Source: Rhizophagus irregularis | Lineage: Eukaryota > Glomeromycota > Glomeromycetes > Glomerales > Glomeraceae | Length of the DNA: 64,000 nt | Direction: 5' to 3' | NCBI RefSeq assembly: GCF_026210795.1 | Contig: NC_089438.1 | Span: 2,687,501-2,751,500 of the forward strand | In this document: in pieces, positions 6,100 to 60,964 of the stretch | Layout: each line of letters starts with the position of its first letter | Position numbering within the stretch: position 1 is the stretch's first letter | Program-made: the position numbers and the translations under genes | The notes under the pieces: generated by a model | Database searches by the model: none | Told to the model about the DNA's origin: nothing | Seen by the model: only the letters and a program-made list of their open reading frames with translations

Positions 6100-6950
6100 C
6101 GTCTATGACCACCGAACTATGACCACTGAACTATGGCCACCTTAGTAAGTTCCTCGGGCTCTAAAACCTGATTCATGCTATGATTATCCTTTATATACTC
6201 ACCTGGATCCCGAACTATGACCACCGAACTATGACCACTTGCCCCGAACTATGACCACTTGTCCTGAACTATGACCACCGAACTATGACCACCGAACTAT
6301 GACCACCGAACTATGACCACCCTTTATCTACTTACCTGGAACACTGAACTATGACCACTTTATGTCCCGAACTATGACAGCCGAACTATGGACACCTTAG
6401 TCAGCCTTTTAGGCTCCAAAACCCGATTCAAGCTATGGACACCTGCCCCTCTATCTCACTCGAAAAAATATATTCGGCAATTGAGGATTAGGTAACTATA
6501 AGTAACATACAATGATGAACTTACACGCAGCCATTTCTCTTGTTGAAGACCTCGGACTTGATCTTGTAGACATCTATGGAATCTGTAAATGGATCCAAAT
6601 GCGGGCATCACCACTCAATGACCTGGACATAGTAGCAGAGATGGTCAGAAACCTTCCGGTTAAAGAATTCGGAAAACATCTCAAGATTAACAGACTCTGG
6701 TACAATGGTTGTAAAGCCGAGTTGTGGAAGCGGCATAAAGAAGCTGAGGAAGCATACGACAGGACAGTAGACCACTACAGGGAAGCTAATGATCCTGCAG
6801 AGTCATATTTTTTGTCCAGATTTTTACAAGGATTGATGACTATATAACCATATCATCAGGTATTTTTACATTTTTCAACAAGGATTAATGACCATGTAAC
6901 TTCATCATCAGGCATTCATGAATTCTTAACATAAACTAATAAATTTTTGA
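6100..6950 (+). repeat. Left arm of a long inverted repeat
   Basis: Inverted copy of 8128-8850. It contains a tract of tandem 14-bp units (CCGAACTATGACCA type, about 6100-6400), then a degraded reading frame, then non-coding sequence ending near AAACTAATAAATTT. Compared with the right arm it carries a 40-bp insertion after GGCAATT (about 6482-6522), which shifts the frame. The arms remain very similar. Confidence 0.8.
6512..6847 (+). pseudogene. Arm-encoded hypothetical protein, copy 1, N-terminus disrupted
   Basis: Residues from LHAAISLVEDLGLDL to the end match the inverted copy at 8222-8641 almost exactly (YGICKWIQMRASPLND, RLWYNGCKAELWKRHKEA, SRFLQGLMTI). The upstream part of that copy is out of frame here because of the 40-bp length difference at about 6482-6522. 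The protein is not recognised; it is helical and rich in charged residues. Either the left copy gained the 40 bp or the right copy lost them. Confidence 0.45.
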
Positions 6951-6969
6951 ATATTCTCTAATAATTTCT

Positions 6970-7165
6970 AATGTGTATTAAATGGAATGGCATCCATTTG
7001 TTCATCTGGCCATTTGTACAATAATGTACAGGATTCCATCCATCCATCCATCCATCCATTTATACGTTAAAAATATAGCATTGGATGGAATGGCATCCAT
7101 TTGTTCATCTAGCCATTTGTACAATAATGTTTAGGATTCCATCTATCCATTCGTCCATTTGAACA
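6970..7165. repeat. Two direct repeats of about 100 bp with a (CATC)n tract
   Basis: TGGAATGGCATCCATTTGTT followed by CATTTGTACAATAATGT occurs at about 6980 and again at about 7084. Each copy ends in a run of CCATCCATC or a degenerate form of it. It lies just upstream of the ORF at 7221. Confidence 0.7.
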
Positions 7166-7220
7166 TACACATCAGAAATGAACACTTTACATTTACTGAG
7201 TGGTTGTAATATTATTTACC

Positions 7221-8039
7221 ATGTTGCCTCCATGTCCTAAATGTGGAAAAGATAATTTTAAAAGTACTCGAGATAGAAACACTCATCTGAATCGCAGAAT
7301 TCCATGTATACCTAAAATTACTGAAGTAATTAGCTATCCAGAAACTATTCCAGAACCTTCAGAAGTTGGAAATAACCTTCCAAATAATCTAAAGTATGGT
7401 GGTACATCATCTGTAGAAGAGCTTAAAGCAACTATAGATGGGCTTGCTTCACAAATGCGAGCAATTTCTTGGCAATTAAAAAATACATCAATGGATATTA
7501 AGGGAGTGTCAGATGATATAACAGAATTATCAAATCAGCAGGAAGCAGCACAAAGTAAAATACAGGATCTTGAGGAAACAATGTCTCAACACACTGCTTT
7601 AACTAAAAAATCTGTTTGAAACCTTCAAAAAACAATGTCTCAACATACTGCTTCAACCAAAAAATCTGTTCAAGATCTTGAGGAGACAATGTCTCAACAT
7701 ACTGCTTTGTTTAGTAAATCAAGTATTCATAGTATTCCACTTTCAACTGCTAGTTCTAAAACTTCACAATTTACATATGATCCTACAATAGCAGATTTAG
7801 AACAGACTGAAGAGGATAAAGAAACGGCTAAATTATATACGAATCAACTTTTATTAATGTTAAGATCATGTCCACTTGATGATAAAGAATTTACAGAAGG
7901 AAATAATATACTACAATGGCTTTTTGCTAATAATATAATAAGAGATGAATACTTATTTCGCAAGTTTTCTGTATTTTTACATAGTCCAAAACCAGTAAAA
8001 TTAAGAATTTCTTTGGAAAAATCTGATGAAAAGGATTAA
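7221..8039 (+). pseudogene. Zinc-finger plus coiled-coil protein between the inverted arms, one in-frame stop
   Basis: The ATG at 7221 starts MLPPCPKCGKDNFKSTRDRN, a C2H2-like finger (CPKC...H...C) found in many Rhizophagus element proteins. Residues from about 75 on form a coiled coil. The motif DLEETMSQHTALTKKSVQ is then tandemly repeated about three times (7560-7710). Within the repeat a TGA at 7617-7619 interrupts the frame, which continues cleanly to 8039. The C-terminal part (DLEQTEEDKETAKLYTNQLL...) is unrecognised. Being the only long ORF between the inverted arms at 6100-6950 and 8128-8850, it may be cargo or a DNA-binding protein of that element. Confidence 0.5.
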
Positions 8040-8127
8040 TTCAATTTGCTATCTTATTGGTTCAAACTAGTGATTAGACAGGATTTTGAAAAAGTAATAG
8101 ATAGAATGAATTTGATGGAATAAAATT

Positions 8128-8850
8128 TATTAGTTTATGTTAAGAATTCATAAATGCTTGATAATGAAGTTACATGGTCATCAATCCTTGTTGAAAAATG
8201 TAAGGATACCTGATGATATGGTTATATAGTCATCAATCCTTGTAAAAATCTGGACAAAAAATATGACTCTGCAGGATCATTAGCTTCCCTGTAGTGGTCT
8301 ACTGCCCTGTCGTATGCCTCCTCGGCTTCTTTATGCCGCTTCCACAACTCGGCTTTACAACCGTTGTACCAGAGTCTGTTAATCTTGAGATGTTTTCTGA
8401 ATTCTTTAACCAGAAGGTTTCTGACCATCTCTGCTACTATGTCTGGGTCATTGAGAGGTGATGCCCGCATTTGGATCCATTTACGGATTCCATAGATGTC
8501 TACAAGATCAAGTCCAAGGTCTTCGGCAAGAGAAGTGGCTGCGTGTAATTGCCGAATATATTTTTTCGAGTGAGATAGAGGGGCAGGTGTCCATAGCTTG
8601 AATCGGGTTTTGGAGCCTGAGGGGCTGACTAAGGTGTCCATAGTTCGGCTGTCATAGTTCGGGACATAAAGTGGTCATAGTTCGGTGTTCCAGGTAAGTA
8701 GATAAAGGGTGGTCATAGTTCGGTGGTCATAGTTCGGTGGTCATAGTTCGGGACAAGTGGTCATAGTTCGGGGCAAGTGGTCATAATTCGGTGGTCATAG
8801 TTCGGGGCAAGTGGTCATAGTTCGGTGGTCATAGTATTATCATAAGTTTT
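8128..8850 (-). repeat. Right arm of the long inverted repeat
   Basis: Inverted copy of 6100-6950: non-coding inner part, reading frame 8222-8641, then the tandem GGTCATAGTTCGG tract (about 8640-8840). The arms are separated by about 1.2 kb. Confidence 0.8.
8222..8641 (-). CDS. Hypothetical protein encoded by the right inverted arm
   Basis: An open frame of 139 residues from ATG 8641 (MDTLVSPSGSKTRFKLW), with no recognised domain. It is charged and helical, with LAEDLGLDLVDIYGIRKW, KINRLWYNGCKAELWKRH and a C-terminus SRFLQGLMTI. The start codon lies just inside the tandem GGTCATAGTTCGG tract, so the first 20 or so residues may not be genuine. The inverted copy at 6512-6847 has several substitutions and a frame-breaking 40-bp difference. 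Gene or relic cannot be decided from the sequence. Confidence 0.4.
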   Translation of the reverse strand: MDTLVSPSGSKTRFKLWTPAPLSHSKKYIRQLHAATSLAEDLGLDLVDIYGIRKWIQMRASPLNDPDIVAEMVRNLLVKEFRKHLKINRLWYNGCKAELWKRHKEAEEAYDRAVDHYREANDPAESYFLSRFLQGLMTI

Positions 8851-27823: not shown

Positions 27824-30806
27824 ATGCCTTTTTATAAATGTTTACATTGTCCACGTACTTTTTCAAGTCCATTTGGATTAAAATGACATATTTCCGATAA
27901 ACATCAATATGATGTTATCGATGAAAAAGAAAACATTACTAGGGATGAAAAAGAATTTAAACCAGCTATACAAACTGATAAACCCGGTCTTTGGGATGAT
28001 GAAAAACAAACTGAAGAAACCCTTTTTTCAGATGATGACTTTATAATGTATTATTATGAGGTAATACTACAAATAATCTAATCATCATTAACCACGATAA
28101 TTAATAATTACTAATTGATATTTAATTATAAACAGGATGAAGCTGAACAAATGATATTAGATCAAAATGCAGAATCTTCAGCTGCAGTTTCAAAATCTAA
28201 AACTATATCAGAAGCTTTTTCTCAAGAAACAAATGAGGAAAATAAGAAGTTTAATATCGATAGTGAAACAGATGAGGAGGAAATTAATGCTGGCTTAACA
28301 TTTCCGTTATTTATTGATGAAAATGATTATCGTGAAACCACATTGGATGATGCTATAAAAGACAAAAATCATCCTCTCAGCACCGAGTGGCCAAGTAATA
28401 TTTATCGGCAGTTTATGGAAATCGTCACTGAATATCAGTTACCAAATTCATGTGGCGATAGATTAATCAAATTATTTAATTCAATCGAAAATGTTGATAA
28501 AATTTGTTTCCAAAATCTACCAAAGAGGGCCAAAAATTCCTTGATAACAGTAATTTTCCTTATATGAAATTTAAAAATGTTCCCATTACCAATTTTCAAG
28601 AAGTTGACTATGAATTTTATTATCAACCAATAATTCATGGAATTAAAGTTTTACTTCTTCAATCTGATATTAATAATGAATTTGTCTTTAAGTATAGTCA
28701 AAATAATAATACATCTTATGGCGAGTAATACGAAAGTGAATGGTGGTGTACTACAGAAAAAAACATTCCTATTGATAATCATTTGTTATCGATAATAATC
28801 TATGCCGATTCTACCACCTGTGATCATCTTGGAAAATCTTCGGAACATCCCATTTACATTTCACTTGGAAATATCCCAAATTGGATACGAAATAAACCTG
28901 ATGCTAAGGTACTTATCGGGTATTTACCAAAATTAAAGGCTAAGGATAATACCACAAAAAATTCCAAATCATTCCAAAGATTACAAAGACAAGTATTTCA
29001 AAGATGTCTTCAAATATTATTATCACCAATAATAAATAAAACCAATATGTATTTTGTCATAAAAAATGAAATATACTCATTCACGCCAAAAATATCAGTA
29101 ATTCTTGCTGACATGGCAGAAGCTGGTGCATTTACTATGACATATCTACCATCAACGTCAAAACGACCTTGCTATTGTTGTCTAGTAGATAACAATGATC
29201 TTAATAATATGGAGTTATCTCATATTACTTTACGAACCCCAGAAATCATGAAAAAAATAATCAATGAAAATCGAGCAAAAGATTTTTTGATTCATGAAGA
29301 AATTAATTATTTCTGGAAATCTAAAGATTTTAACATTTACTCAGCAACGGTTCTGGATCGGATGCACATGCTCGATCTTGGAATCACAAAATATCTTCTA
29401 GAGTATACACGTGAATATTTACAGCAAAAAGTTGACAGTAAAACTGTTAACGAAATTGATCATAGACTTCGTAAAATTCCACGTTACCCAGGATTGATTA
29501 TTTTTAAAAATGGATTAGAAAATATAACGAAGTTTACTGCCAATGATTATCGCAACATAATGAAAGTGATCATCTTTATTATAGATAATTTATATGATAA
29601 TTACAAAGAAGGTGGAATAATGTGTAAAAAATTATGCAATGTTTTTTATAAATATTTAAAAATGTATATGATGTTGCGACAAGAAATGTTTACAGATATG
29701 GATTTAAAAGAGTTAGAGGTAAATGTTTTAAAATAACTCTATCAGTTAAATGTTTTGTCATTAAATACAATTTTAATCAGTTAAATGTTTTATCATTAAA
29801 TACAATTTTAATAATTGTTAATATATTATGATTATTAGACGCTAATAATTGAATTTTGTCAAGAATTTGTAAATATATTTTTTGAATATTCTACCAGCCA
29901 TTGTAAAATCCCAAAACTTCACATGCTCCGCTATCATGTAATTCCATCAATTCGCCTTTATGGTTTTATGAACGTAATGTCGACTGAAACGTATGAAACA
30001 TTACACAAAAGCAATGTAAAAAATCCCTACAGATCGACCAATAAAAAAAACTATGTTCTACAAATGCTTAAAACGGTATATATCGGTATATCTTTATTAG
30101 TTAATTTATCGATAATAATATATTTTAAAATTTATATAGGTATGACGTCAATTAATTGCTTCTAAACAAAAGTTACATAAAATAAGGAAATCTAGCGGAT
30201 TTAAAAATCTGCTGTGGGAATTTAAATTTACTGAAATTGAAGAAAAAGTATCTCAAATAATACAAGATGATACTATTAATCCCTTACATAAAACAGGGTT
30301 TAAAAATTTTCGTGCTGGGTTGGAAGAGTTTTTGACAGAAAATGATGTTACTTATGATGAAAATTTTGGATATTTCAAAATATATTCAAATGCATCTGTT
30401 GAATCAATGGATATTATTCGAACGTCAGGAAGTTTTTATGGCAGTGAGTGGTTTAGCGATGTAGCAGTTTCCTCTGAGAAAACTGAATGGTATGGAAAGG
30501 TAACAATTTAATCATTATAATTACTACGAAACCTAATTTTTTTTCAAATTATATAACATTCATTATTAATTTAATTTCCAGGCACTTCTATTATTTGAAT
30601 TTTTTGCAGAAAATAAAAAAGATCCAATAAACCTTATTTTACTACAATGGTATGATGAAATATATGAAGAAATGTATGAATGTAAAAGAATACAACTAAC
30701 CGATCAGTACATATGCGTTTATCTAGATTCGGTAGATATGGCAGTTCATATCATACCAAGAAATAACTGTGAAAATGAATATTTTGTTAATAGATATATT
30801 TATTAA
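27824..30806 (+). pseudogene. Plavaka transposase copy B
   Basis: Exon 1 (27824-28060) is a C2H2 finger (CLHCPRTFSSPFGLK, then TGA at 27884, HISDKH). Exon 2 starts at 28136 with an acidic region and STEWPSNIYRQFMEIVTEYQ. A frame slip at ~28500 leads to PKSTKEGQKFLDNSNFPYMK. A TAA at 28726 precedes ESEWW, then the core: IIYADSTTCDHLGKSSEHPI, LGNIPNWIRNKPDAKV, RPCYCCL, DRMHMLDLGITKYLLEYT. After an intron: KLHMLRYHVIPSIRLYGF and TYETLHKSNVKNPYRSTNKK. The last exons end at TAA 30806 (ENEYFVNRYIY). The same exon layout as copy A supports the model. Several stops and a slip make it inactive as read. Confidence 0.85.
29738..29812. repeat. Two tandem copies of a 37-bp repeat inside an intron of copy B
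   Basis: ATCAGTTAAATGTTTTGTCA followed by TTAAATACAATTTTA occurs twice in a row with one substitution. Confidence 0.8.
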
Positions 30807-43769: not shown

Positions 43770-46130
43770 ATACTACCTCCCATTCTCCAATAATAATTAT
43801 TTATATTATCTGTTATGTATAAAATTAAAGAAACCAGGAATTTCCTTTTTTTGAAATTTTGTGCAACACATCTTTTTCAATTCGACCTCTCTATATCATC
43901 ACGAATTTGCCGATCATTTATTGACATTGTCACCTAAGAAAAGGTGACTATTTTATATAAATTCTACAGATCAACATTTACCGTTGAATCTGATCCATTT
44001 ACGATTTATTGTCCTACAAAATAAAAAAAAGGCGGAACATCCCTGTTGCTGAAAAGCGACGTGAGACGATATTTCATTTTTGGAAATTAATATAACCAAA
44101 AATTTTCCTTAGGAATACTACTATTTCTTTTTTGTTTGTGTAACATAACTGACGAGTGGGAGAAAAGCTACACAGACACCACATGATTGCAATGATTTCA
44201 AATAATATAGATAAAGATAATACAACAATATAAAAAAAAAAAAGATACAATATAGTATTTTAGGACAATACTCATACCTGAATTTTAAAAAAATATTGTT
44301 AACATACAAATATGGTGAAAATATTGTCTGTATGAAAATTCTTTTGTATGTTGTGATGTTTCAGCTCCTAAAAAGTGTAACTAAAAATTTGACGTATTGT
44401 AGATCAATTACTAATTGTTTTTTCAAACACGGAGACATGCATAAATGCACACAATATTAAACATTTTTCAATCCAAAAGTATGAAAAAGTATAAATTAGC
44501 AAAAAATTTTCTTAAGAAGACAAAAAATTAAAATTCAATCAATTAAAATTCAATCAAAAAAAAAAGAAAAAATACTTTGATAGTTTTTTTCGCATAATTC
44601 AAACTCTTAAAATCAATTAAATTCTTTAAATTTCCTAACAAAATGAATCAGACTGAAGTTACCATTAAACTATCCATTCCATCTATCGCAACTGCTGAAG
44701 CCACTGAAAAACCGGGTGATTCTGGTGGCTGTACAATTATGTAATAAAATAAAATTCTTTACATTTACGAATTTTATCGTCAGATCTGATTGGAAATTAA
44801 ACATTTATGTATTGTTAAATAATCATTTGTCTATAGTTTACAACTTTTAAATTCTATTTATTTGTAATATACATTATACTTTATATATATATATTTCGTT
44901 AGTTTACCTGTGTTATTATATTATCAAATTACTTAATATTCGAATCACTATTACTTTTAAAACGATTTCGGTGTTTTAAAACATGTGTTAAAAAATGTTT
45001 TAAAACACTTCGATATTATAAACTTAATGTTTTAAATCTTAAATTTAGGTTAAAAATCAATTCATATATAATAAAACAAAAACTGTTTTAGAACATGTTG
45101 TTTTAAATTACGTGGCATACCTATCTGTATTTTATCGTTTGTGTATTCTAAAAATTGCAAAAATAAAATCACATCTTTAAATTCATTATTTAAAATGTTC
45201 TAAATTCTAATAATTTTGGCAAGTTTGAGGTTGCCTTAAAAGTTGCTTGTCTAAACCATAATTAATTTTCTAATAGTGTACACAGAAAATTTTCTATGCT
45301 GATCACGTAATAAGAAAAAAAAATCTTTTTGATGCAAAATACACAATATTTATTAGGACCAGTTGATCATCTTTATAAGTAACGAAAAATTAATATTTTT
45401 GTTAGAAGATATCATTTCTGTAAAAGATTTATCCGTAATTTCTATATTACGGAAAAATAACTAAAAATCGAGACTATAAATTCCGGGAATGTAATACATT
45501 TACGGAAATAACAGAATAAAAAATACGGAATAAATTTATTATAGGGAATCCTATATTATTATTAAGATAAACACAAGGTTATTGATAATCAAAAACTCGA
45601 TAAAATATATACTATTATTGTAAGTGATCATCTAAACTCGAAAGTATAATTCTAGTTAAAACTAATATGCTGTATTGCTTCTAGTGAAAGGTTTCATTAA
45701 TGTAATTTATCAATAGTAAAGAGTCCTTTATTGAGTTGCGAAAAAAACAAAAGTTTATGGATGAAAAAAAATTATTGCTAGCTGCGAGTGAAACGTTAGG
45801 AAATGAGCCCGGCTGACGTTTGTTCTTTCTTGTTTAACGTATTTTTAAATACTTTACTTTTTCAGTTGAAACAGAACAATACTCAAAGGCAATAGTACAT
45901 AAAATATGAAAGACATCGAATTTTCTAATCACTTGAGAAATTTAGCCGCCGTGAAAGTGACAAATTAATTGAATCATTGGTTGCTAGATTATTTCCTTTG
46001 AATTTTATTTTACTAGAATTAAAACCAACTTTGCTGTCAATATAGTATGTTTTTTTGACAACCATATAACACCCATATAACAACCCTGTCATATTTATAT
46101 TTTGTAATGATTTGCGATATGACTGTTATT
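43770..46130 (+). repeat. CaaX-peptide unit, copy 1
   Basis: Similar to 53120-55395 in reverse complement over its whole length, and to 50570-52070 directly over its 5' two thirds. Shared marks include CACGAATTTGCCGATCATTT, GAAAAGCGACGTGAGACGAT, the peptide gene, GGCAAGTTTGAGGTTGCCTT and GAAATGAGCCCGGCTGACG. Indels are frequent outside the peptide gene. Confidence 0.85.
44643..44744 (+). CDS. 33-residue peptide ending in a CaaX box (copy 1)
   Basis: The ATG at 44643 follows CCTAACAAA. The peptide begins MNQTEVTIKLSIPSI and ends KPGDSGGCTIM, then TAA. C-T-I-M at the very C-terminus is a CaaX prenylation motif; Met in the last position is favoured by farnesyltransferase. Short precursors ending in CaaX are known as lipopeptide mating pheromones in other fungi. 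CaaX is also found on G-gamma and Ras-like proteins, but no such domain is present here. A TATAAATTAG motif lies about 155 bp upstream and AATAAA overlaps the stop region. Copy 2 is identical over all 102 bp. Copy 3 differs at five positions, three of them silent. Product and role are inferred. Confidence 0.7.
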   Translation: MNQTEVTIKLSIPSIATAEATEKPGDSGGCTIM

Positions 46131-47639
46131 ATGATTCAATATATATTAAAACACCATATCAGAATTTGCATTATAACACTATGATTATAACATGTATTAT
46201 CACATAATTACAATAATATTGATGCTTTATTTGTAAAATGTATGTATATACTATAACGTTATTGTAATATTTGCACATAATCATTATATAATAAACTCAA
46301 TATTCTAATAACTACCTATGCGCACCCATTTCACATGCATCTCACTACTATTATTGACAAGTAGTATGTTGGAATACAAAAAATAGTAAAGCAAATCTCG
46401 CGTCCCACTACTACCCTATAAAAATTTTTTCAGAAAAATGGTCACGTGTCTGAATTTCTTCGGAATAAAAACTAGAAAAATGATCATTTATCAGAGTTTT
46501 TCCTGGAATTTTTTTATAGGGCTACATTGCAGAAATTTTTATAATCGAAACCATATCGTGATTAAGTCGAAAATTTATTGTAAACCTTATATCCAAGATT
46601 TGGTCACGATATGGTTTCACATCGTCACGATAAGCTTAAGTTGATCGTATGTATAAAGTTGATACATATTAAGGAGATCATCACCGGGTCGTACAAAAAT
46701 TGTAGAAATTGTAAAGTTATGTTGAAGTTATAGTCAAGTTATATTAAATGTATATTTAAGTTATAGTCAAATTGTATTAAATGCATATTAAAGTCATATT
46801 ATGTTGATAGTAAATAAATAGTAGTTTGTGTGACTAACGTTTAGATTAGCCTGTATAAATAATCTTTGAATTGTGCAATGCGTCTATTCATCTGCGCCTC
46901 TACACCTGATCTATTACGTTTTCTTATAGACATACAAATCATACAAATGTTAATTACTAATGGTGTAACATTTAATATGATTAATGTGTTTGCGCCTGAT
47001 CTATTCTTAATAGTTAAGACCACTTGATCGGCAAATTACTGATATGCAGGAAAAGGAAATTTGTATAATTCTGGCCGGAATTATACCTTCGCAATTTTCT
47101 CCCAAAATTAAAAAAGACCATCCACGCTATAAATTAAAAATTTTAATTGTGTCAAGACTTCCAGAAATTATTTAAATTTTAAATTTAACATTTTACACTT
47201 AAAGTTATAACTGACTTTGCAAAAATCCTGAAATTTTGTATTAGCATTTTAATATGCTAAATTAATTAAAAACTATTAATATAATAGTCTATTAAAAGCA
47301 TAATAAAGGAATCTATAATATAAAATTACAAATATAGCCTTAAAATAGGTCGTAATAAAGGTCTATAATAGTCAAATAATATTTTTTAAAATTTTGTTAA
47401 AAATTTCATTATATTTATGCAAATATTATATTACGTTTATATTGCTAATATATGATTTTATAATTCTATATTTAGGATTATGTATAATTAAGGCTTTTCA
47501 GACGAAATAAAGTGCATTTATTATATCAAGCTTAATAATTATTCTATTATAAAGAATTTTCAAATATATATACTGTATAGTAATATAAGATTAATAAGTT
47601 TACTTAATTAGTGAGTTTTATATTTAGCGACTTTAATGC
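46131..47639. other. Non-coding, no gene seen
   Basis: Inner part of the 41-48 kb inverted-repeat element. 46418-46520 (CAGAAAAATGGTCACGTGTC...) is repeated directly at 55418-55520. Many short direct repeats (TAAAGTTATA type) lie at 46700-46800. Small ORFs at 46438-46644 and 46841-47023 have no support. Confidence 0.45.
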
Positions 47640-48365
47640 TTCTAGCATGTGACTATCATGTGACTATAGGCGGAAGCCTTAATTTTTTTAATTTTAAATA
47701 ATGACTACTTTTTTAAAAAAAAAATTTATCCTTTCAATTCAACTCAGCGATATAGAAGCAATAAGAATGTTAATACAATAATTTTTTATTAATCCATTAT
47801 TGGCTTTGCCATTTATCATAACATTAATTTATTAAAGTTTGTATAATTAAACGTAATTAAACATAAGATATATTGACATATATATATAGTTGGAGCTTAT
47901 TTAAGAATCATAAACTTCGTAGCCACGCTCAATTAAGGCAATGTATTACTAGACCTACACTAAAGATGACTTTAGTGAGGCTTTCTTCGTGAATTAAAAG
48001 AAATTTCATACACTTTGCCAGCTGGTGGGATAGCTTATGACCTTTAACCTCAAGTCTATTCATACTAATAAATCCAGAATGTTTCTAATAAAAGTAGTAT
48101 ACTTAAGGTACTTCAAAGAATCTCTAAAAAGAAAATAAATAAATAAATGAGCAATTAGTAAACATTTCATCAAAAAATAAAATAAAAAAAAATAAATACT
48201 TTCATTTTTGTTTATAATCACATGATATCAATTGACACCTCCGACTTATACTGTTATAGCCAAATATAAGGGATATGATCGATATACCAAACGTCTAAAT
48301 CCATCTAAAGAGCAAATATTCATCTAAAAAGTTTAAGCTTCTTACTCTAGTAGTTCCAAGAGGTG
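47640..48365 (-). repeat. Right arm of the second long inverted repeat
   Basis: Reverse-complement partner of 41160-42095. It includes the conserved 133-bp block and ends at the outer side near ACTCTAGTAGTTCC. Similarity between arms is good but interrupted by small indels. Confidence 0.85.
47904..48036 (-). ncRNA. Conserved 133-bp block, copy 3 (inverted)
   Basis: On the minus strand the stem is CACTAAAG-TCAT-CTTTAGTG, fully paired. Relative to copy 1 the G-C pair has become A-U and the outer U-G has become C-G. Confidence 0.4.
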
Positions 48366-48919
48366 AAATGATTTAAAAGATATAATTGTAAAGAATGTGT
48401 AAAATAAACGTTTAAAATGTATAAAAATATATAATATTATGCAGAGCTCATAAAGAATAAAATGAGTTAATTAATTAAATTAAAGTAAATGATTCTATAA
48501 GTCGCAACTCGCAAGGCAAAATGTTTTGGCTTAACATTATATTTAGTATAATGTATTCTTTGACAAATAATATATACCATTATTTATATTAGATATATAT
48601 ATGTGTGTATATATATGAGCACATATATACATATCAATTAAAAATATAAAAGAAAAATTTGAATTTCGGGGAAAAGCTCCTATTTATATAAAATTATGTA
48701 TCACGTGAATCACGTGATATTAAATTAGTAATTACCGCAGCTTTAGCTGCGGTATAGCAAAAAAAAAATTAAGCTTTTTTTGGTAAAGCTTAATTTTTTT
48801 TTCTTTTTATCACCTTTCGCTTCATCTTTCTTTCCTTTTGCCTCCCCTCTCTTTTACCCTTTCCCCTTCCCTCAATTCTACCCCCTTTTCCCCTTTCTTC
48901 TGCCCTTTTTCCTTCCCTT
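48366..48919. other. Non-coding; palindromic and pyrimidine-rich patches
   Basis: ATCACGTGAATCACGTGAT at about 48700, the palindrome ACCGCAGCTTTAGCTGCGGT at 48734-48753, AAGCTTTTTTTGGTAAAGCTT, then a CT-rich stretch to 48920. No gene. The ORF 48780-48974 is composition-driven. Confidence 0.5.
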
Positions 48920-49760
48920 CTTTCAGAAAAATAAAATGGTAAGTTTCGAAGCAAATGCTTCGAAACTTTATTAAAAATTTATTTTTTTAAAAAAAAATCA
49001 GAAAATGGTAAGTTTTGTATGTTTTGCTACGAAACTTTTCCATTTTTCTTTTTCTTTTCTTTAAGAAACATTCTAACTGAATGTTTCCTTTCTTTTTTGT
49101 AGGTCTTTTTTAGGCAGTCCTTTCAGTTTCCTTTAACATGAATTTGGTAAGTTATTCAATTTTTTTTAATTGTTTTTATTTTAACGAACAGTTTCTAACA
49201 GTTCGTTTACTTTCTTTTATCTAGGCGGTTCTCTTTATGATTTTGGTAAGAAATCAGACAGTGTTTATATTTCTATATATTTCCTTAACGAAACGTATAC
49301 TAACGTTTCAATTTTTTCTTTTTTTTAGAAGACCGAGTCTTTGGATGTATAAGAATTCGATGGGGTGAAGTTTTTTTTGAACTATCTTCAAGAAATGTTT
49401 ATTAATGTTTCTTTCTCCTTATTATGTGACTTATTCTTCAAACTTCTTGATGTAAATTTTGGTGGGTATTTTTTTCTTAACTATTTATTTTAACGAAGTG
49501 TTTTCTAACGCCTCAATTTTTCTTCTTTTAGATGTTTCTTTTGGTGGCTCTGGATGTGGCATTTTGGTAAGTTTGTTCTTTTTTTTCTTGAAATTTTTTT
49601 TTGATAAACATTTCCTAACTGTTTTTTTTTCTTTTTAAATAGTTCTTCAACTCTTTTGACGTGAGACTTCAGTGGAAGTATTATTTTTTTGTTTTATTCC
49701 ATCTTTTGTTTTTAATAACGGTTACTAATTTCTTTTTTTTCTTTTTTTTAAGCGGCTCAG
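48920..49760 (+). repeat. Intron-like array, plus strand, about seven units with branch-point hairpins
   Basis: Successive intervals begin GTAAGTTT, GTAAGTTATT, GTAAGAAATC, GTGGGTATT or GTAAGTTTG and end TTTTGTAG, TTATCTAG, TTTTTTAG, TCTTTTAG or TAAATAG. Most contain a hairpin around CTAAC, such as GAAACATTCTAACTGAATGT, or around TACTAAC (GAAACGTATACTAACGTTTC). Between them lie blocks of 20-130 bp often ending in ATTTTG. Blocks share no protein motif. Confidence 0.7.
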
Positions 49761-50569
49761 ACATGGTTAGGTGATATTATGCAAGGTTATTCTTCATATT
49801 ACTCGATGAATTGAATGAGGCTTTATTATCAACTCGAGTCTATTTTTAAATGTTTTATAAGAATTCAACAACGATAATTGTATTATAAATGAATATTAAA
49901 TAATTAGTAATATAATATTATCATTATTACAATTGCCTTTTATTATTATTACAAATGTTATTACAAATGTCTTTAATTATTGTTATAATTGAATTTTATT
50001 ATAATTATAAATGTCTTTTAATATACTTACAAACGCCTTTTATCAAACTAATAATTTAATATAATAAGCCTGAAATTAAACTATTCCGATCATAAAATAT
50101 TCATTTGTTATCTTCTTACTAGCATTATTAACGAGATGAATGATAGCCCTAAATTATTTCTATTCTAGGCCTATAATAATTCTCTTATTAGGCTTATACC
50201 GAAAATAATGTTTTTAGCAAAGGATATATATCACATACTGTAACCTTTTTTTCCATCAAAATTAATTTAATCACTTTCTTAGCAAAGATCTAAATTTGAA
50301 AACGTGTGATCAAAAATGACGATCAAATATAATTACAATATACATACCTGCATACCCGATGCGAAGCAACGGGCTACTGCTAGTAATTGTATTAAAGTTA
50401 TAGTAAAATTTTATTTTTGAAGTTGTAAATAAGTCATTAAGTAATAGTAAAGTTCCTATTCTAAGCTAATTAACTCTAACAATCATAAACCCTAACAATC
50501 ATACTTTTCATATTTCAAAAAGAAGGAATCTGGCCAGAACCTGAAAAATGTCATCAAAAAAAAAGAAAA
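49761..50569. other. Non-coding, no gene seen
   Basis: AT-rich DNA between the intron-like array and CaaX unit 2. ATTACAAATG and TTTTATTATTA phrases recur at 49910-50040. Confidence 0.4.
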
Positions 50570-52070
50570 ATTACATCTTTTCAATTCTATCATCACGAAT
50601 TTGCCGATCATTTATTGACATTGTCACGGTGACTATTTTTATATAAATTCTACAGATCAACATACCGTTGAATCTGATTTATTGTCCAGATAGGTACCTA
50701 CAGAATAAAAAAAAGGCGGAACATCCCCTGTTGCTGAAAAGCGACGTGAGACGATATTTCTTTTTTTGGAAATTAATGTAACCAAAAATTTCCTTAGGAA
50801 TACTATTCATTTTTTGTTTGTATAACATAACTGATGAGTGGGAGAAAAGCTACACAATTACACAATTAAAGGAGTCTTAACGTGACACCATATGATTACA
50901 ATGATTTCAATATAATATAGTAGATAAAACAATAAAAAAAAAAAAAAAAAATACAATAATATAGTATTTTAGGACAATACTCATACTGAATTTTAAAAAA
51001 ATATTGTTAACACACAAATATGGTGAAAATATTGTCTGTATGAAAATTCTTTTGTATGTTGTGATGTTTCAGCTCCTAAAAAGTGTAACTAAAAATTCGA
51101 CGTATTGTAGATCAATTACTAATTGTTTTTTCAAACACGGAGACGTGCATAAATGCACACAATATTAAACATTTTTCAATCCAAAAGTATGAAAAAGTAT
51201 AAATTAGCAAAAAATTTTCTTAAGACAAAAAATTAAAATTCAATCAAAAAAAAAAAAGAAAAAGAAAAAATACTTTGATAGTTTTTTTCGCATAATTCAA
51301 ACTCTTAAAATCAATTAAATTCTTTAAATTTCCTAACAAAATGAATCAGACTGAAGTTACCATTAAACTATCCATTCCATCTATCGCAACTGCTGAAGCC
51401 ACTGAAAAACCGGGTGATTCTGGTGGCTGTACAATTATGTAATAAAAATAAAATTCTTTACATTTACGAATTTTATCGTCAGATCTGATTGGAAATTAAA
51501 CATTTATGTATTGTTAAATAATCATTTGTCTATAGTTTACAACTTTTAAATTCTATTTATTTGTAATAATACATTGTACTTTATATATATATATTTCGTT
51601 AGTTTACTTGTGTTATTATATTATCAAATTACTTAATATTCGAATCACTATTACATATTTTGTCTTATATTCTGTATTTAGGGACATGTTTTAAAACGAT
51701 TTCAGCGTTTTAAAACATGTGTTAAAAAATGTTTTAAAACACTTCGATATTATCATAAATTTTAAATCTTAAATTTTGATTAAAAAATCAATTTATATAT
51801 AATAAAACGAAAACTGTTTTAGAACATGTTGTTTTAAATTACGTGCCATACCTATCTGTATTTTATCGTTTGTGTATTCTAAAAATTACAAAAATAAAAT
51901 CACATCTTTAAATTCATTATTTAAATGATTTAAATTCTAATAATTTTGGCAAGTTTGAGGTTGCCTTAAAAGTTGTCTAAACCATAACTAATTTTCTAAT
52001 AGTGTACACAGAAAATTTTCTATGCTGATCACGTAAGAAAAAAAATCTTTTTGATGCAAATACACAATCA
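50570..52070 (+). repeat. CaaX-peptide unit, copy 2 (3' third displaced)
   Basis: Direct copy of 43860-45350. After TTTTTGATGCAAATACACAA at about 52070 the match breaks, and 52070-52970 is unrelated. 52975-53115 then matches the distal part of unit 1 (about 45755-45890), so unit 2 appears split by an insertion or partly deleted. Confidence 0.8.
51341..51442 (+). CDS. 33-residue peptide ending in a CaaX box (copy 2)
   Basis: Identical in nucleotide and protein sequence to the copy at 44643-44744, including ATG context and stop. Upstream and downstream of the gene the two units differ by many substitutions and homopolymer indels (for example ATAAAATAAAA versus ATAAAAATAAAA right after the stop). 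Identity of the coding part therefore suggests constraint or very local conversion. The same TATAAATTAG motif and polyadenylation-like AATAAA are present. Function is inferred as for copy 1. Confidence 0.7.
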   Translation: MNQTEVTIKLSIPSIATAEATEKPGDSGGCTIM

Positions 52071-52974
52071 CTGGTCGAAGTGGGATGATTTGCATGAAGT
52101 TTATTGCCCATAAATAATAGCTTATACATTTGTTGATCTCAATTACGCTTAATAAATCTCCATCAAATTTAATTTATAGATTGAAATGGGTAAAATTTAT
52201 TGTAAATTTTATGCTTTTAAAACTAATTCACTAATTATAATGTATGTATAAGTCAAATTCTAAATAAATTTTAATTAAATTTAATATCAATGTTTATTAC
52301 GCACTTCTTAGTATGGAAATATCCTTATTTTTTACTTTTTTTTTGTAGTTATAGAAGGGCTTTGATTGGGTACCTGGAGACTGGAGATGGTAAGTTTCTT
52401 TGCGAAACTTACTTTTTTTTGTTTTCTTTAATTAGAAACATTCTTAATGTTTCTTTTATTTTTTTTTTTTGGATCTCGGCTCCTTCAAAACTTTTTGTTA
52501 TTGGACAGATTGTTTTTTGGAGTTCTTAAATGTGTAGAATTTCGGTAGGAGGCTCCCTTTCTTGGGATTATTTCGTTTTAAGGAAAAGTTTCATTTTTTT
52601 GGACTTTTTCAAATTACCTTTAGAAAAACATGTTTATTAAATAATTTTATGTTCAGATACTTTATACATTTTATATAAAGAATTATATTATCAATACTTA
52701 ATAATGGATAGCTAGCGTAGTATGTAATATATAACATTGTTTGCTTTATCAAATATATATGTAAATAAAGTGTGTTTACAACGTTGTAAAAAATAAATTA
52801 CTACGTTTTGACTATATGTTTACAATAGCAAAATAGGTACAGTGAAATCATTTTTACGGTAAATTAAAAAAGCGTAGTGGCGATACATTTACGTTCAATA
52901 ACGACGCACAAAACGACGGATGAATCACGTGATTTTGGCGCAATGTCGACGTTGTTAAAAATATGAAGTTTCTG
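52071..52974. other. Insertion-like segment with one intron-like unit
   Basis: Unrelated to the CaaX unit on either side. At 52385-52480 GATGGTAAGTTTCTTTGCG and a GAAACATTCTTAATGTTTC hairpin form a single unit of the 48.9-49.8 kb array type. ORF 52290-52529 crosses it and is not convincing. Confidence 0.45.
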
Positions 52975-53515
52975 CAATGAAAGTTTATGCATGAAAAAAA
53001 TTTTTGGCTAGCTGCGGGTGAACGTTAGGAAATGAGCCCGGCTGACGCTTGTTCTTTCTTGTTTACCGTATTTTTAAATATTTTACTTTTTCAGTTGAAA
53101 CAGAACAATACTCAAAGGCAACTGATATATAATAGCAGTCATATCGCAAATCATTACAAAATATAAATATAACAGGGTTGTTATATGGATGTTATATGGT
53201 TGTCAAAAAAACATATATTGACAGCAAAGTTGGTTTTAATTCTAGTAAAATAAACGAAAATGTGACAATTCAAAGGAAATAATAGAACCAATTACCAATG
53301 ATTCAATTAATTTGTCACTTTCCGGTTAAATTTCTCAAGTGATAAAAAAATTCGATGTCTTTCATATTTTATGTATTGCCTTTGAGTATTGTTCTGTTTC
53401 AACTGAAAAAGTAAAATATTTAAAAATACGTTAAACAAGAAAGAACAAACGTCAGCCGGGCTCATTTCCTAACGTTTCACTCGCAGCTAGCAATAAATTT
53501 TTTTCATCCATAAAC
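52975..53515. repeat. Palindrome at the junction of CaaX units 2 and 3
   Basis: 52982-53120 and 53380-53515 are inverted copies (GAAATGAGCCCGGCTGACGC... / ...CGTCAGCCGGGCTCATTTCC) with about 260 bp between them. This puts the distal ends of units 2 and 3 tail to tail. Confidence 0.85.
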
Positions 53516-55395
53516 TTTTATTTTTTTCGCAGCTCAATAAAAGGACTCTTTACTGTTGATATATTACATAATGAAACCTTTCACTAGAAGCAATCAACAT
53601 ACAGTATTAGTTTTAATTAGAATTATACTTTCGAGTTTAGATGATCACTTATAATATATATTTTATCGAGTTTTTAATTATCATTAACTTTGTGTTTATC
53701 TTAATAATAATATAGGATTCCCTATAATAAATTTATTCCGTGTTTTTTATTCTGTTATTTCCGTAAATGTATTACATTCACAGGATTTATAGCCTCAAAA
53801 TGTATAGATTTTATATTTTTCCGTAAATATAGAAATTGCAGATAAATCTTTTACAGGAATTATATCTTCTAACAAAAATATTAATTTTTCGTTACTAATA
53901 AATATTGTGTATTTTGCATCAAAAAGATTATTACGTGATCAGCATAGAAAATTTTCTGTATACACTATTAGAAAATTAGATATGGTTTAGACAACTTTTA
54001 AGGCAACCTCAAACTCACCAAAATTATTAGAATTTAGAACATTTTAAATAATGAATTTAAAGATGTGATTTATTTTTGTAATTTTTAGAATACACAAACG
54101 ATAAAATACAGATAGGTATGGCACGTAATTTAAAACAACATGTTCTAAAACAGTTTTTTTCGTTTTATTATATAAAAATTGATTTTTTATAATATCAAAG
54201 TGTTTTTTAAAACATGTTTTAAAACACTGAAATTGTTTTAAACCATGTCCCTAATTACAGAATATAAGACAAAATATGAATGGTGACTAGAATTATTAAG
54301 TAATTTGATAATATAATAATAAGTAATAACACAAGTAAACTAACGATATATATATATATATAAGGCACAATATATTATTACGAATAAATAAACTATAGAC
54401 AAATGATTATTTAACAATACATAAATGTTTAATATCCAATCAGATCTGACGATAAAAGTTCGTATATGTAAGACTTTTTATTTTATTACATAATTGTACA
54501 ACCACCAGAATCGCCCGGTTTTTCAGTGGCTTCAGCAGTTGCGATAGATGGAATGGATAGTTTGATGACAACTTCAGTCTGATTCATTTTGTTAGGGAAT
54601 TTAAAGAATTTAATTGATTTTAAGAGTTTGAATATGCGAAAAAACTATCAAAGTATTTTTTTTTTTTGATTGAATTTTAATTGATTGAATTTTAATTTTT
54701 TGTCTTCTTAAGAAAATTTTTTGCTAATTTATACTTTTTCATACTTTTGGATTGAAAAATTTTTAATATTGTGTGCATTACGCATGTCTCCGTGTTTGGA
54801 AAACAATTGTAATTGATCTACAATACGTTAAATTTTTATTTGCACTTTTTAGGAGCTGAAACATCACATCATACAAAAGAATTTCATACAGACAATATTT
54901 TCACCATGTTTCTGTGTTAACAATATTTTTTTAAAATTCAGTATGAGTATTGTCCTAAAATACTATATTGTTGTATTATCTTTATCTATATTATTTGAAA
55001 TCATTGCAGTCATGTGGTGTCACGTTAAGACTCTTTTGAATTGTGTAATTGTGTAGCTTTTCTCCCACTCGTCGGTTATGTTTAATCAAATCGGTTACAT
55101 TAATTTCCAAAAAGGAAATATCGTCTCACGTCGCTTTTCAGCAACAGGGGATGTCCCTCTTTTTTTTATTTTGATGGACAATAATCGGATCTATATAAAA
55201 ATAGCCACCTTTTCTTATGTGACAATGTCAATAAATGATCGGCAAATTCGTGATGATATAGATATGTCGAATTGAAATAGCTATGTTGCACAAAATTTCA
55301 CAAAAAGGAAATTCCGTCCGGTTTCTTTAATTTATACATAATATAATTAATTGTTATATTGTTATTATTGGATAATGGGAGGTAGTGGGTTAATT
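53120..55395 (-). repeat. CaaX-peptide unit, copy 3 (inverted)
   Basis: Reverse complement of 43770-46130 over about 2.3 kb, from GGTTGTTATATGG at its distal end to CTACCTCCCATT at its proximal end. With unit 2 it makes a long, gapped inverted repeat that could be read into double-stranded RNA. Confidence 0.85.
54486..54587 (-). CDS. 33-residue peptide ending in a CaaX box (copy 3)
   Basis: ATG at 54587, TAA at 54488-54486. Relative to copies 1 and 2 there are five base changes and no indels. Three are silent (ATT to ATC, GGT to GGC, GGC to GGT); two fall in one codon and change Thr7 to Val (ACC to GTC). The C-terminal GDSGGCTIM is unchanged. The flanks of this inverted unit carry many indels relative to the other two. 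The open frame, the CaaX box and the silent bias together favour a real small gene. Confidence 0.7.
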   Translation of the reverse strand: MNQTEVVIKLSIPSIATAEATEKPGDSGGCTIM

Positions 55396-56571: not shown

Positions 56572-59500
56572 TTAACTTAAATATTCATATTCTTTACCAA
56601 CTTTTTTCCCGTGTAACTCAATTCCTTTATTTTTATAGTATACAACTTTATGCCGTGCGTTTGAATACCCATATTCAGCTGACTTTTTATAGAATTTAAA
56701 AGCTTTAGCTTCATCCCTTTTAACACCTATTCCATGTTCGTAACATCTTCCTAAATTATATAATGCTACTTCACTTCCATTATTTGCTGCTTTTTCATAC
56801 CAAAAAAATGCCATTTCATCATTCTTTTCAATTTCTTCCCCATTTTCATATAAAAATCCAAGACTATTTTGTGCAAACTTATTTCCTTTTGCAGCTGCTT
56901 CTTTATATAATTTCAACGCTTCTTTTTTATCGGTATCAGTACCAATTTTTTTATTATAACATTCAGCAACCTTATATTTTGCATTTAGATATCCTTGTTC
57001 ATTTGATTTCTTATAATACTCAAAAGCCTTAACTTCATCCTTTTTAACGCCCATTCCATATTCATAACATCTGCCTAAATTATATATTGCTATTTCGTTT
57101 CCATTATTTGCTGCTTCGTTATACCAAAAAAAGGCCATTTCTCCGTTCTTTTCAATTTTATTCTCATTTTCATATAATAATCCAAGACTGTTTTGTGCAG
57201 ACTTATTTCCTTTTCCAGCTGTCTCTTTATATAATTTCAATGCTGCTTCTTTATTAATTTTAGTACCAATTCCTTTGTAATAACACTCGGCAACTTTATA
57301 TTTCGCATTTAAGTATTCCTGTTCGGCCGATTTCTTATAACATTTAAAGGCTTTATTTTCATCTTTTTCAACACCTATTCCGTTTTCATAACATATACCT
57401 AAATTATATTGTGCTATTTCATTTCCATTAACTGCTGCTTTTTTATACCAAAAGAATGCCGTTTCCACATTTTTTTCAGTCCCATAACCTTTTTCATAAA
57501 AGAAACCAAGAGCGTTTTGCGCCAATTTATTTCCATTTTCTGCTGCCTCCTCATATAATTCAAATGCCTTTACTTTATTAATTTCAGTACCAATACCTTC
57601 ATTATAAAAATTACCAAGCCGGAATTTTCCATCTGTATATCCTTGATCAGCTGATTTCTCGTAACATTCAAATGCTTTATTTTCATTTTTTTCAACACCT
57701 ATTCCATATTCATAACATCTTCCTAAATTAAATAATGCTATTTCGTTTTCTTTCGCTTCATTATACCAATAGAAAGCTTCTTCAAATTTCTTTTCTTTTT
57801 CATAAAAAGTTCCAAGTTTAATTTGTGCAAATTTATTTCCTTTTTTTGCCATCTTTTTATATAATTCATACGCCTCTTTTTTATTAGACTTGGTTCCAAT
57901 TCCTTTATCATAAAAATATGCTACTTTATATTGTGCTTCTATATACTTTTGTTTAGATGCTTTTTTATAAGATTCAAAAGCTTTAATAATATCATTTTCA
58001 ACATTCATTCCATTTCCATAAAATATATTTAATGTATATGGACGTCTATATTTAGCTGATTTTTTATAATATTCGAATGCTTTATCATCACTTTTCTCAA
58101 CACCTATTTTATTTTCATAACATACACCTAAGTTATACTGTGATAACCTATTTCCATTATCGGCCGCTTTTTCATACCAACGAATTGCTTCTTTAAAGTT
58201 CTTTTCGATTCCTTCACCTTTTTCATATAAATGTCCAAGGTTATTTTGAGCTCCAAGGTTTCCTTTCTTAGCGGCACGTTCATATAATTCAAAAGCTTTT
58301 ACTTTATCAATACTAGTCCCAACTCCTTTATCATAACAATATCCCAATCGAAATATCCCATCTATATAACCTTGTCCAGCTGATTTCTTAAATAATTCAA
58401 AAGCTCTTCTTTCATTTTTTTCTACACCAATACCATCTCTATAACAACAACCTAAATTATGTAACGCAACTTTATTTCCAATTTCTGCTGCTCTTTCAAA
58501 ATAATGAAATGCTTTGTCATATCTTATTCTTATTAATAATTTTCCAATATAATATAAACCAAATTGACTCAACCTTTTTGTAATTAATATTTTATGAGAA
58601 TTAATCTCGTTATCTTTAAGAATATCTTTTGCGATAATACTTCCACTTTTTGTTGCTTTTTTATACCAATAAATAGCTAGATCCTTATCTATTTTCGTTC
58701 CAATTCCATCATTAAAACAGTTTCCTAATTGATATTGAGCATCAGCAATTTCATAACGCTTAGCTAATATTTTATAATATTTAAATGCTTTGATTTCATC
58801 CTTTTTAACACCTTTTCCTAATCTGTAACAGTTTGCAAGATAAAGTTTTGCGGTTGTATTATCATTATTATTTGCTTTTTTATACCAACAAACTGCACGT
58901 TTTTCATTTTTTTCAATTCCAATACCATTTTCATAACAATAACCTAAATAAAACTGCCCAATTATACTTTTATTTTCCACAGATTTTTTATACCATTCAA
59001 ATGCTAAATATTGATTTTTCTCTGTTCCATATCCTTCATTATAACAATTAGCAAGATAAACTTGAGCCAATGAATAGTTATCTTTTGATGCTTCTGAAAA
59101 TAATTGAAAAGCTTTATTGCTGCTTTCTTTAGTATTAATATTATAATAATAAAACAATCCCAAAACCCACTTATGTTGTGCATAACCTTGATTTTTTAAT
59201 AACCAATTAATAAGTTTGTCTATATTTTGATTTAATATTTGTTGATTAATGAGTTGTTGAATTTGATCAAAAGTGACGCCTTGATTATGTTTCTTAATTA
59301 AAATTTTAATTAATTTATCAACAATTACATGGTTCATAGAATCCAATAGATGTTTTGAATCTGATGAGGAATTTGTAATATTTTCGGAATCGGTTGTAAC
59401 AGTTTCATAAGTCTGTGAACTTAAGTTACTATTTGATAAAACTATACTTGGTATGTTATCTATTACCAAATCATCATTTAAACCCATAGATTCTCTGCTC

Positions 59501-60964
59501 ACTGTTGAATTAGAACTATCCATATAAGTGTAAGTATTTAATAACGGATTTATCAAATATGATTGTGAGTACCTTTCCTTTTCTTTATAAATATTATTAT
59601 CAATTACATACTTTCTTTCCGAAATAATTGATTCAAGAATTGAAACAACTTCTAATATATTTGGACGTTCACTCGGTTCATATTTCCAACATTCTAAAGA
59701 ATTGTGTAGAATAAGAGTAATGAGAATTAACGTTATATTCATTATTATCCGGAGCGGAGCGAAGGTACTGCGATCGATCACGTGAATGACTCTATCCTCT
59801 CACGTGACATCATCGATAGATTTATCTTATTCGCTACAACGATTTCCGTTTTCTAGGATCTATGATCTTTTAAACATGATTACGAAACTACTTACTTGTA
59901 TATAAATCACTGTATTCAGTAGGAGTACCATGAATAATTTCTTCTCTTTTTCCTAATTGTATATCAAGAGCTAATTCATAATTGTCTTCGTAATGAAATG
60001 GTTGATATCCACTTGAAATTTGCCACATAATAACTCCAATACTATATATATCAGACTTTTTATCTAGTTTGTGATTTTTATCGGCAAAACTTTTCGGATC
60101 TACATAAGGTACTACACCATGTAGGCTTGATGTACTATTTGACGCTTCGGCAATTTTTTTTGATAAACCAAAATCTGCAAGCTTAATATTTTTTTGATGC
60201 ATAAGTATATTTGCCGCGTGCTTTAAATTACATATATAAAAAGTTGATAATTAATTTTATGATTTATTTTTTTTTTTTTTTTTTTTTGAAAAAGTAAAAT
60301 TTGTAAGCAAGTTTGATGTATTACCAGATCACGATGAATAATATCACATTCATGTAAACATAGAATAGCGTTTGATAATTGAAACACTAGTCTTAGTTTA
60401 TCGTCCCATCCGAGTTGATCAAAGTTATCATGTAAATAGCTCTCTAGTGTACCACTATCAGCATATTCTAAAACCAAAATGTAATTGTTAATTTGATGAT
60501 CATCTAAAAATAATGAAAAAAAAAATATGTTAAAAATTGTTAATTTGTTTCAATGTAATATGTTGTTCCCACTTTTCTTACCGATCATTATTCCTTTTGT
60601 GATACCATAAAATCTTAATATATTATCATGAATATTAACGGTCCGATGTAATTTTAACTAAAAAAAAAATATAAAAATATGATTAAATAAAGTAAAACTT
60701 ATATTTTCAAAAAAAAAGAAAGAAATCAATGATAATTACTTCATTAACGACTTCTTTAAGAGTTGATTTATGATTAATAAAAGATTTTAAAGCGAAGAAC
60801 GTATTAGTATGTTTCCAATTAGCACGAGCGATACTTCCAAATGCACCATTCCCTATATTCTGTATATTTTTAAAATCAGAATATTCATAGTAATTAATAT
60901 GTTCATTAGCGATTGATCTTTCTAACCAATCAACGTAATTTTTTGTATCAGAATCGGTTGTCAT
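56572..60964 (-). CDS. TKL-like protein kinase with C-terminal Sel1 repeat array
   Basis: Five exons: 60964-60740, 60657-60582, 60503-60325, 60220-59896 and 59693-56572, all with GT-AG introns. They total 3927 nt, giving 1308 residues. The kinase domain has a glycine loop IGNGAFGS (37-44), Lys60 in FALKSF, Glu71, HRDL (157-160) completed by HAANIL across an intron, DFG (176-178), YVDPKSF and [12 protein letters not shown]. All key catalytic residues are present. A Ser/Thr-rich linker follows, then about 22-24 Sel1 repeats (LGxCYxxGxGxxKx type, 36 residues each) to the C-terminus. Such kinase-Sel1 fusions are expanded in Rhizophagus; they are thought to be signalling or scaffold proteins in the cytosol. 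The 59895-59694 intron is unusually long (202 bp) and open on its 3' side, so a simple ORF search adds about 30 false residues. Confidence 0.9.

Follow-up and report, generated by a model that had tools for sequence, protein, structure and literature searches.

A dispersed family of short CaaX-peptide genes in Rhizophagus irregularis as candidate precursors of a-factor-like pheromones

Introduction

Lipopeptide pheromones are known in the Dikarya, basidiomycetes carry several different pheromone genes per genome, and a curated fungal pheromone profile model exists in Pfam. Here we describe a family of very short genes from the arbuscular mycorrhizal fungus Rhizophagus irregularis, each ending in a CaaX motif. 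Three members lie within the stretch of DNA under analysis (hereafter the window; 64,000 nucleotides, assembly GCF_026210795.1, contig NC_089438.1, positions 2,687,501 to 2,751,500 of the forward strand). Based on their anatomy and on a lone STE3-type receptor gene in the same genome, we consider it likely that these are precursor genes of a-factor-like lipopeptide pheromones. If so, no precursor family of this kind was, to our knowledge, previously known outside the Dikarya.

The closest described systems resemble the family in part only. What links it to the a-factor of yeast and the a-type precursors of filamentous ascomycetes is the presence of a STE3-type receptor gene in the R. irregularis genome; it differs from them in having no Pfam-recognised similarity, 22 intact copies and ten end types in one genome, and in belonging to the Glomeromycotina. 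The pheromones of the basidiomycete P/R (B) locus are described in the accessible text of PMC3248468 as lipopeptide precursors with a CaaX motif, whereas the R. irregularis peptide genes are unlinked to the receptor gene, which lies on contig C13. The KEPs (KEX2-processed repeat peptides) are also proposed peptide signals, of the same kind of fungus, but in the accessible part of their description they carry a signal peptide, and KEX2 sites separate their repeated motifs (PMC6339444); the CaaX family has neither. What is new is the lineage of fungi, together with a high copy number spread over the genome and the absent linkage to the receptor. The literature searched, with subscription papers and preprints outside its coverage, described no peptide of this kind from arbuscular mycorrhizal fungi. 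As far as the accessible text of Halary et al. 2013 goes, R. irregularis has one STE3 and a STE6, and an a-factor or alpha-factor gene was not found (PMC3834313).

Peptide genes in the window and across the genome

Copy 1 of the precursor gene occupies 44643..44744 of the window on the plus strand (33 codons, MNQTEVTIKLSIPSIATAEATEKPGDSGGCTIM). It ends in a variable segment, GDSGG (codons 25-29; 44715..44729, plus strand), which may form part of the mature peptide, followed by the CaaX tail CTIM (44730..44741, plus strand). Copy 2 (51341..51442, plus strand) has the same coding sequence, and copy 3 (54486..54587, minus strand) differs by the replacement T7V and 3 silent changes. The initial annotation, made from the sequence alone, had claimed three 33-codon frames with the C-terminus GDSGGCTIM, two of them identical and the third with three silent codons and one replacement, in surroundings rich in insertions and deletions. 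All of this was re-found, gap positions relative to copy 1 amounting to 115/1525 for copy 2 and 287/2453 for copy 3. The window contains 288 ATG-initiated open reading frames (ORFs) of 25-80 codons; a loose CaaX end occurred in 3 of them, exactly the three copies, and a degenerate tail pattern (≤3 mismatches) gave 3 matches in the window compared to a mean of 0.00 in 100 shuffles.

The family was then sought in the whole genome (G000; 146.7 Mb, 32 contigs), where the copy counts that follow are lower bounds. A protein search returned 24 matches, and in no case was the matching part interrupted by a stop (0/24). The same 24 loci were recovered by a DNA pattern search (reversed control, 0), and a second query with a diverged member again gave 24. 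On full reading, 22 of the 24 copies kept the ATG, the frame and the CaaX motif. The two broken copies were L020 (starting at C10:1428210), in which the frame is lost past the pro-part, and L021 (starting at C1:6051343, minus strand), in which the 3' part is gone. A search with upstream DNA (30 matches) together with the tail-pattern search added three further loci, all decayed, at C10:1411241, C10:1464267 and C7:3431584-3433580 (relic L031, region C7:3430600-3434400), the last having its putative promoter and ORF separated by inserted DNA. By eye, the ends of this insert resemble CCCTATAAAA inverted repeats. The tail pattern matched 27 times, compared with once in the reversed control; 23 of the matches fell at family loci, and the other 4 consisted of letters without an ATG-to-stop tail. 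In viral contigs there were 49 pattern matches, yet tblastn found no relative there.

Altogether the known family loci number 27, of which 22 are intact and 5 have decayed. The initial annotation had stated that copies with stops or frameshifts in this ORF elsewhere in the genome would refute its reading; such damage does exist, at 5 of the 27 loci, while the frame stands at the remaining 22. Contig C10 carries 13 of the 27 loci though it makes up only 5.3 of the 146.7 Mb, with 4 loci at 1.41-1.46 Mb, 8 at 2.50-2.74 Mb, among them the window's three copies, and 1 at 4.44 Mb. Peptide genes were found on contigs C1, C2, C5, C7, C9, C10, C15, C16, C20 and C21. Two pairs of members, L018 (C10:2496559-2501941) and L021 (C1:6049787-6054713), are arranged head to head about 2 kb apart, the partners within each pair being unlike.

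Peptide anatomy

The 22 intact copies encode 11 distinct proteins from single-frame ORFs of 33-38 codons. All share one design, in which a nearly invariant pro-part (MNQTEVxIKLSIPSIATAExTEKP) leads into a variable segment of 5-10 residues and then the CaaX motif, present as CTIM, CTVM, CTLM or CPLM (C[TP][IVL]M in 22/24 copies). Residues M1, N2, Q3, T4, V6, I8, K9, L10, S11, I12, P13, S14, I15, T17, C30 and M33 are invariant in 11/11 peptides, and length differences among the peptides are whole codons. After KP or GP, ten distinct C-terminal ends were observed. GDSGGCTIM is found in 3 copies and GESGGCTIM in 11, dispersed over 10 chromosomes; the single-copy ends are GQSGGCTIM, QDDGGCTIM, KAITDCTVM, SDAAGIQCTVM, VDSGIKAGGSCTLM, GDGNNQAGGCPLM, EQKKDANFECTIM and NPNPTKTSCTVM.

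Hydropathy and reading of the 11 distinct peptides revealed no signal peptide (no dedicated predictor was run), and the longest hydrophobic run was ≤4 residues in all of them. Nor did reading reveal internal repeats or units separated by dibasic sites in any of the 11. The family does not fit an alpha-factor or KEX2-type repeat peptide, signal peptide and dibasic repeat units being absent by reading and hydropathy.

Selection on the reading frame

The unit around copy 1 (-750 to +1000 relative to the ATG) holds eight ORFs of at least 25 codons. Across the 15 other copies that, with copy 1, form the group we call E-like, the ORF at 44643 was intact in 15/15, compared with 10, 10, 6, 5, 4, 2 and 0 of 15 for the other seven; one of the two ORFs intact in 10 lies antisense across the 44643 ORF itself. 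The frame is also kept in the divergent copies L016, L017, L019 and L021b, although their units share no more than 70-73% identity with that of copy 1; this calls for selection even if the unit is mobile. Among nine divergent representatives, the mean p-distance was 0.067 in codons 1-15 and 0.139 in the CaaX codons, versus 0.13-0.17 in non-coding blocks, which also had 12-37% gaps. That codons 1-15 and the CaaX motif show zero gaps is partly by construction, as these blocks were trimmed to equal length.

A comparison of non-synonymous and synonymous change across copies, which the initial annotation had proposed, gave ratios of per-site differences (pN/pS) over 12 distinct coding sequences of 0.24 for codons 1-15 and 0.30 for the CaaX motif. 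In the seven equal-length coding sequences the ratio was 1.27 in codons 25-29 versus 0.21 in codons 1-24; this set omits L018b, which is of equal length with a shifted core, and four longer sequences. Residue changes affected 5/5 core codons versus 3/28 others (Fisher test, p = 2.4e-4, with the boundary set post hoc). The frame is thus under purifying selection in the pro-part and CaaX motif, around a core that is relaxed or diversifying, on the evidence of few codons and with gene conversion possible in the 5' part.

Upstream elements

A TATA-box-like TATAAA at 44490..44495 (plus strand), 153 bases before the ATG of copy 1, is a putative promoter element; TATAAA lies 56-153 bases upstream of the ATG in 24/24 copies. 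Further upstream of copy 1 is a conserved block, CAAACACGGAGACATG...ATGCACACAATATTAAA (44424..44461, plus strand), which may be regulatory. The exact words AAACACGGAGAC and TGCACACAAT each occurred upstream of 17/24 copies.

Pathway genes in the genome

One STE3-family (PF02076) gene was detected, at C13:4767083-4768006 on the minus strand, above the curated cut-off; its two exons are open and matched with 128.9 and 72 bits. An ICMT match was present on C5 (103.8 bits). The genome search gave no STE2 match, but the positive controls were silent too, so that absence is not shown. With regard to the CaaX forms, CSIM is given in the accessible text of PMC9231725 as a canonical, fully processed yeast motif. 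The same text lists Met at X among the targets of GGTase-I, and the lipid could therefore be farnesyl or geranylgeranyl (PMC9231725).

Other features of the window

On the minus strand, 56572-60250 holds a 1075-residue ORF with Sel1 repeats (18 stretches), adjoining a protein-kinase fragment. A Plavaka transposase ORF (91 bits) was identified at 28729-29736 on the plus strand. At 6209-8806, a large inverted repeat flanks ORFs at 7200-8039; its arms measure 427, 205 and 99 bases and are 95-98% complementary.

Discussion

The family is best read as the candidate ligand side missing from the STE3/STE6 pathway of R. irregularis. The initial annotation had suggested a prenylated, perhaps pheromone-like peptide, and both the family pattern (constant pro-part, invariant CaaX motif, variable segment) and the STE3-type gene support that suggestion. 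On such a pathway, the CaaX cysteine would be prenylated, probably with a farnesyl group, after which the last three residues would be cut away and the new C-terminal end methylated. Cleavage of the pro-part near EKP would leave a short peptide, lipidated and some 6-12 residues long, which a STE6-like ABC transporter may export and which could act on STE3 of its own or another hypha. Near-identical copies would raise the dose, and diverged copies would encode alternative signals.

Several observations weigh against reading these genes as pheromone precursors. No Pfam model was matched by any of the 11 variants at E values up to 10 (0/11), although proteins as short as 33-38 residues are difficult targets for profile searches. 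The assignment is therefore based on anatomy, and we describe the family as working like an a-factor precursor instead of filing it under a profile family. None of the 24 matches lies on C13, the STE3 contig; both homeobox-KN matches are on C12, without peptide genes there; and the Rce1-like match on C26 is weak (27.9 bits) with two internal stops. DNA upstream of STE3 contains no copy of TGCACACAAT or ACACGGAGAC, and blastn of this DNA against the family upstream region gave short hits only (16-32 bases). As to selection, base mismatch in the ORF among E-like copies (2-3%) is similar to that in adjacent blocks, the absence of gaps being the sole feature that sets the ORF apart from them. The core pN/pS is based on five codons, and synonymous sites in codons 1-15 are fairly conserved as well (pS 0.14), meaning that gene conversion or nucleotide-level constraint may contribute. 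To these can be added the recurrence of one junction of the duplicated unit, taken up below, and the oddity that a single receptor gene stands against some ten types of peptide.

This last point is shared by a different view of the same genes, namely that they encode a real prenylated micropeptide that stays membrane-bound inside the cell, or serves as a hyphal self-fusion or plant signal, and is no ligand of STE3. Ten end types with one unlinked receptor gene would be unusual for a mating pair, and a CaaX motif is by itself no proof of secretion, nor is it exclusive to a-factor in the accessible text of PMC10569646. A constant N-terminal part with a variable stretch right before the CaaX motif would nevertheless be easier to understand as a pro-region that is discarded and a mature peptide that is recognised than as a membrane anchor with a housekeeping role, and we regard a micropeptide of that sort as unlikely. 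It is much less probable still that the ORF has simply been carried along by a mobile element or by segmental duplications and is open only because its copies are young. The duplicated unit around copy 1 (43893..45600, plus strand; about -750 to +960) comprises pieces common to other copies, with ends that vary by pair, and several of its properties would fit mobility. The 11 copies with the GESGGCTIM end are spread over 10 chromosomes; when the 16 E-like copies are compared in all 120 pairs, identity across the aligned unit ranges from 81 to 96% (median 90%); and a left junction recurs near -750, with 30 of the 120 left ends in bins -775 to -726. This junction, about 750 bases before the ATG of E-like copies, is at TCACGAATTTGCCGATCATT and is followed outwards by at least two different sequences, so the unit may be mobile or recurrently broken. 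The pair ends as a whole are scattered, from -1300 to -400 on the left and from 575 to 1600 on the right (120 pairs). Judged by coordinates, 25 of the 27 matches to the left flank lie at family loci, and the right flank matched family loci and, elsewhere, short pieces of its outer part (40/140 candidates scored). The other ORFs of the unit break (0-10 of 15 intact), whereas this frame survives even in the four divergent copies named above. In the outer right flank of copy 1 (45447-45600) there is also a match to a dispersed repeat, for which at least 10 of the listed places are on C3.

Two further explanations were considered. The ORF could be the final exon of a gene for some larger protein with a CaaX end, for example a small GTPase or a G-gamma subunit, since CTAAC just upstream of the ATG and CAG at codon 3 resemble a branch point and an acceptor. 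However, the CAG is CAA in six intact copies (L005, L007, L010, L016, L017 and L021b) with N2 and Q3 retained, the CTAAC is altered in the intact copies L005, L019 and L021b, the in-frame open stretch upstream of the ATG is 9-48 codons, and no variant has a Pfam match, which makes this account highly improbable. That a short ORF in AT-rich, repeated DNA is open by chance is the least credible of all and is contradicted by the copies themselves, given that start, frame, stop and CaaX are retained across diverged copies; CaaX ends are also rare among the short ORFs of the window.

If the family does encode a-factor-like precursors, it is possible, though we would not presume it, that a variable repertoire of prenylated peptides, scattered over the genome and with one STE3 reader, serves self/non-self recognition ahead of hyphal fusion or the exchange of nuclei. 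It has long been asked whether arbuscular mycorrhizal fungi have sex, and the accessible text of a 2024 paper argues that R. irregularis is asexual (PMC11414155). With a candidate ligand family defined in sequence, this question would become directly testable. A recognition repertoire of this kind, if true, would amount to working evidence that fungi considered asexual have a recognition step of a sexual or parasexual nature.

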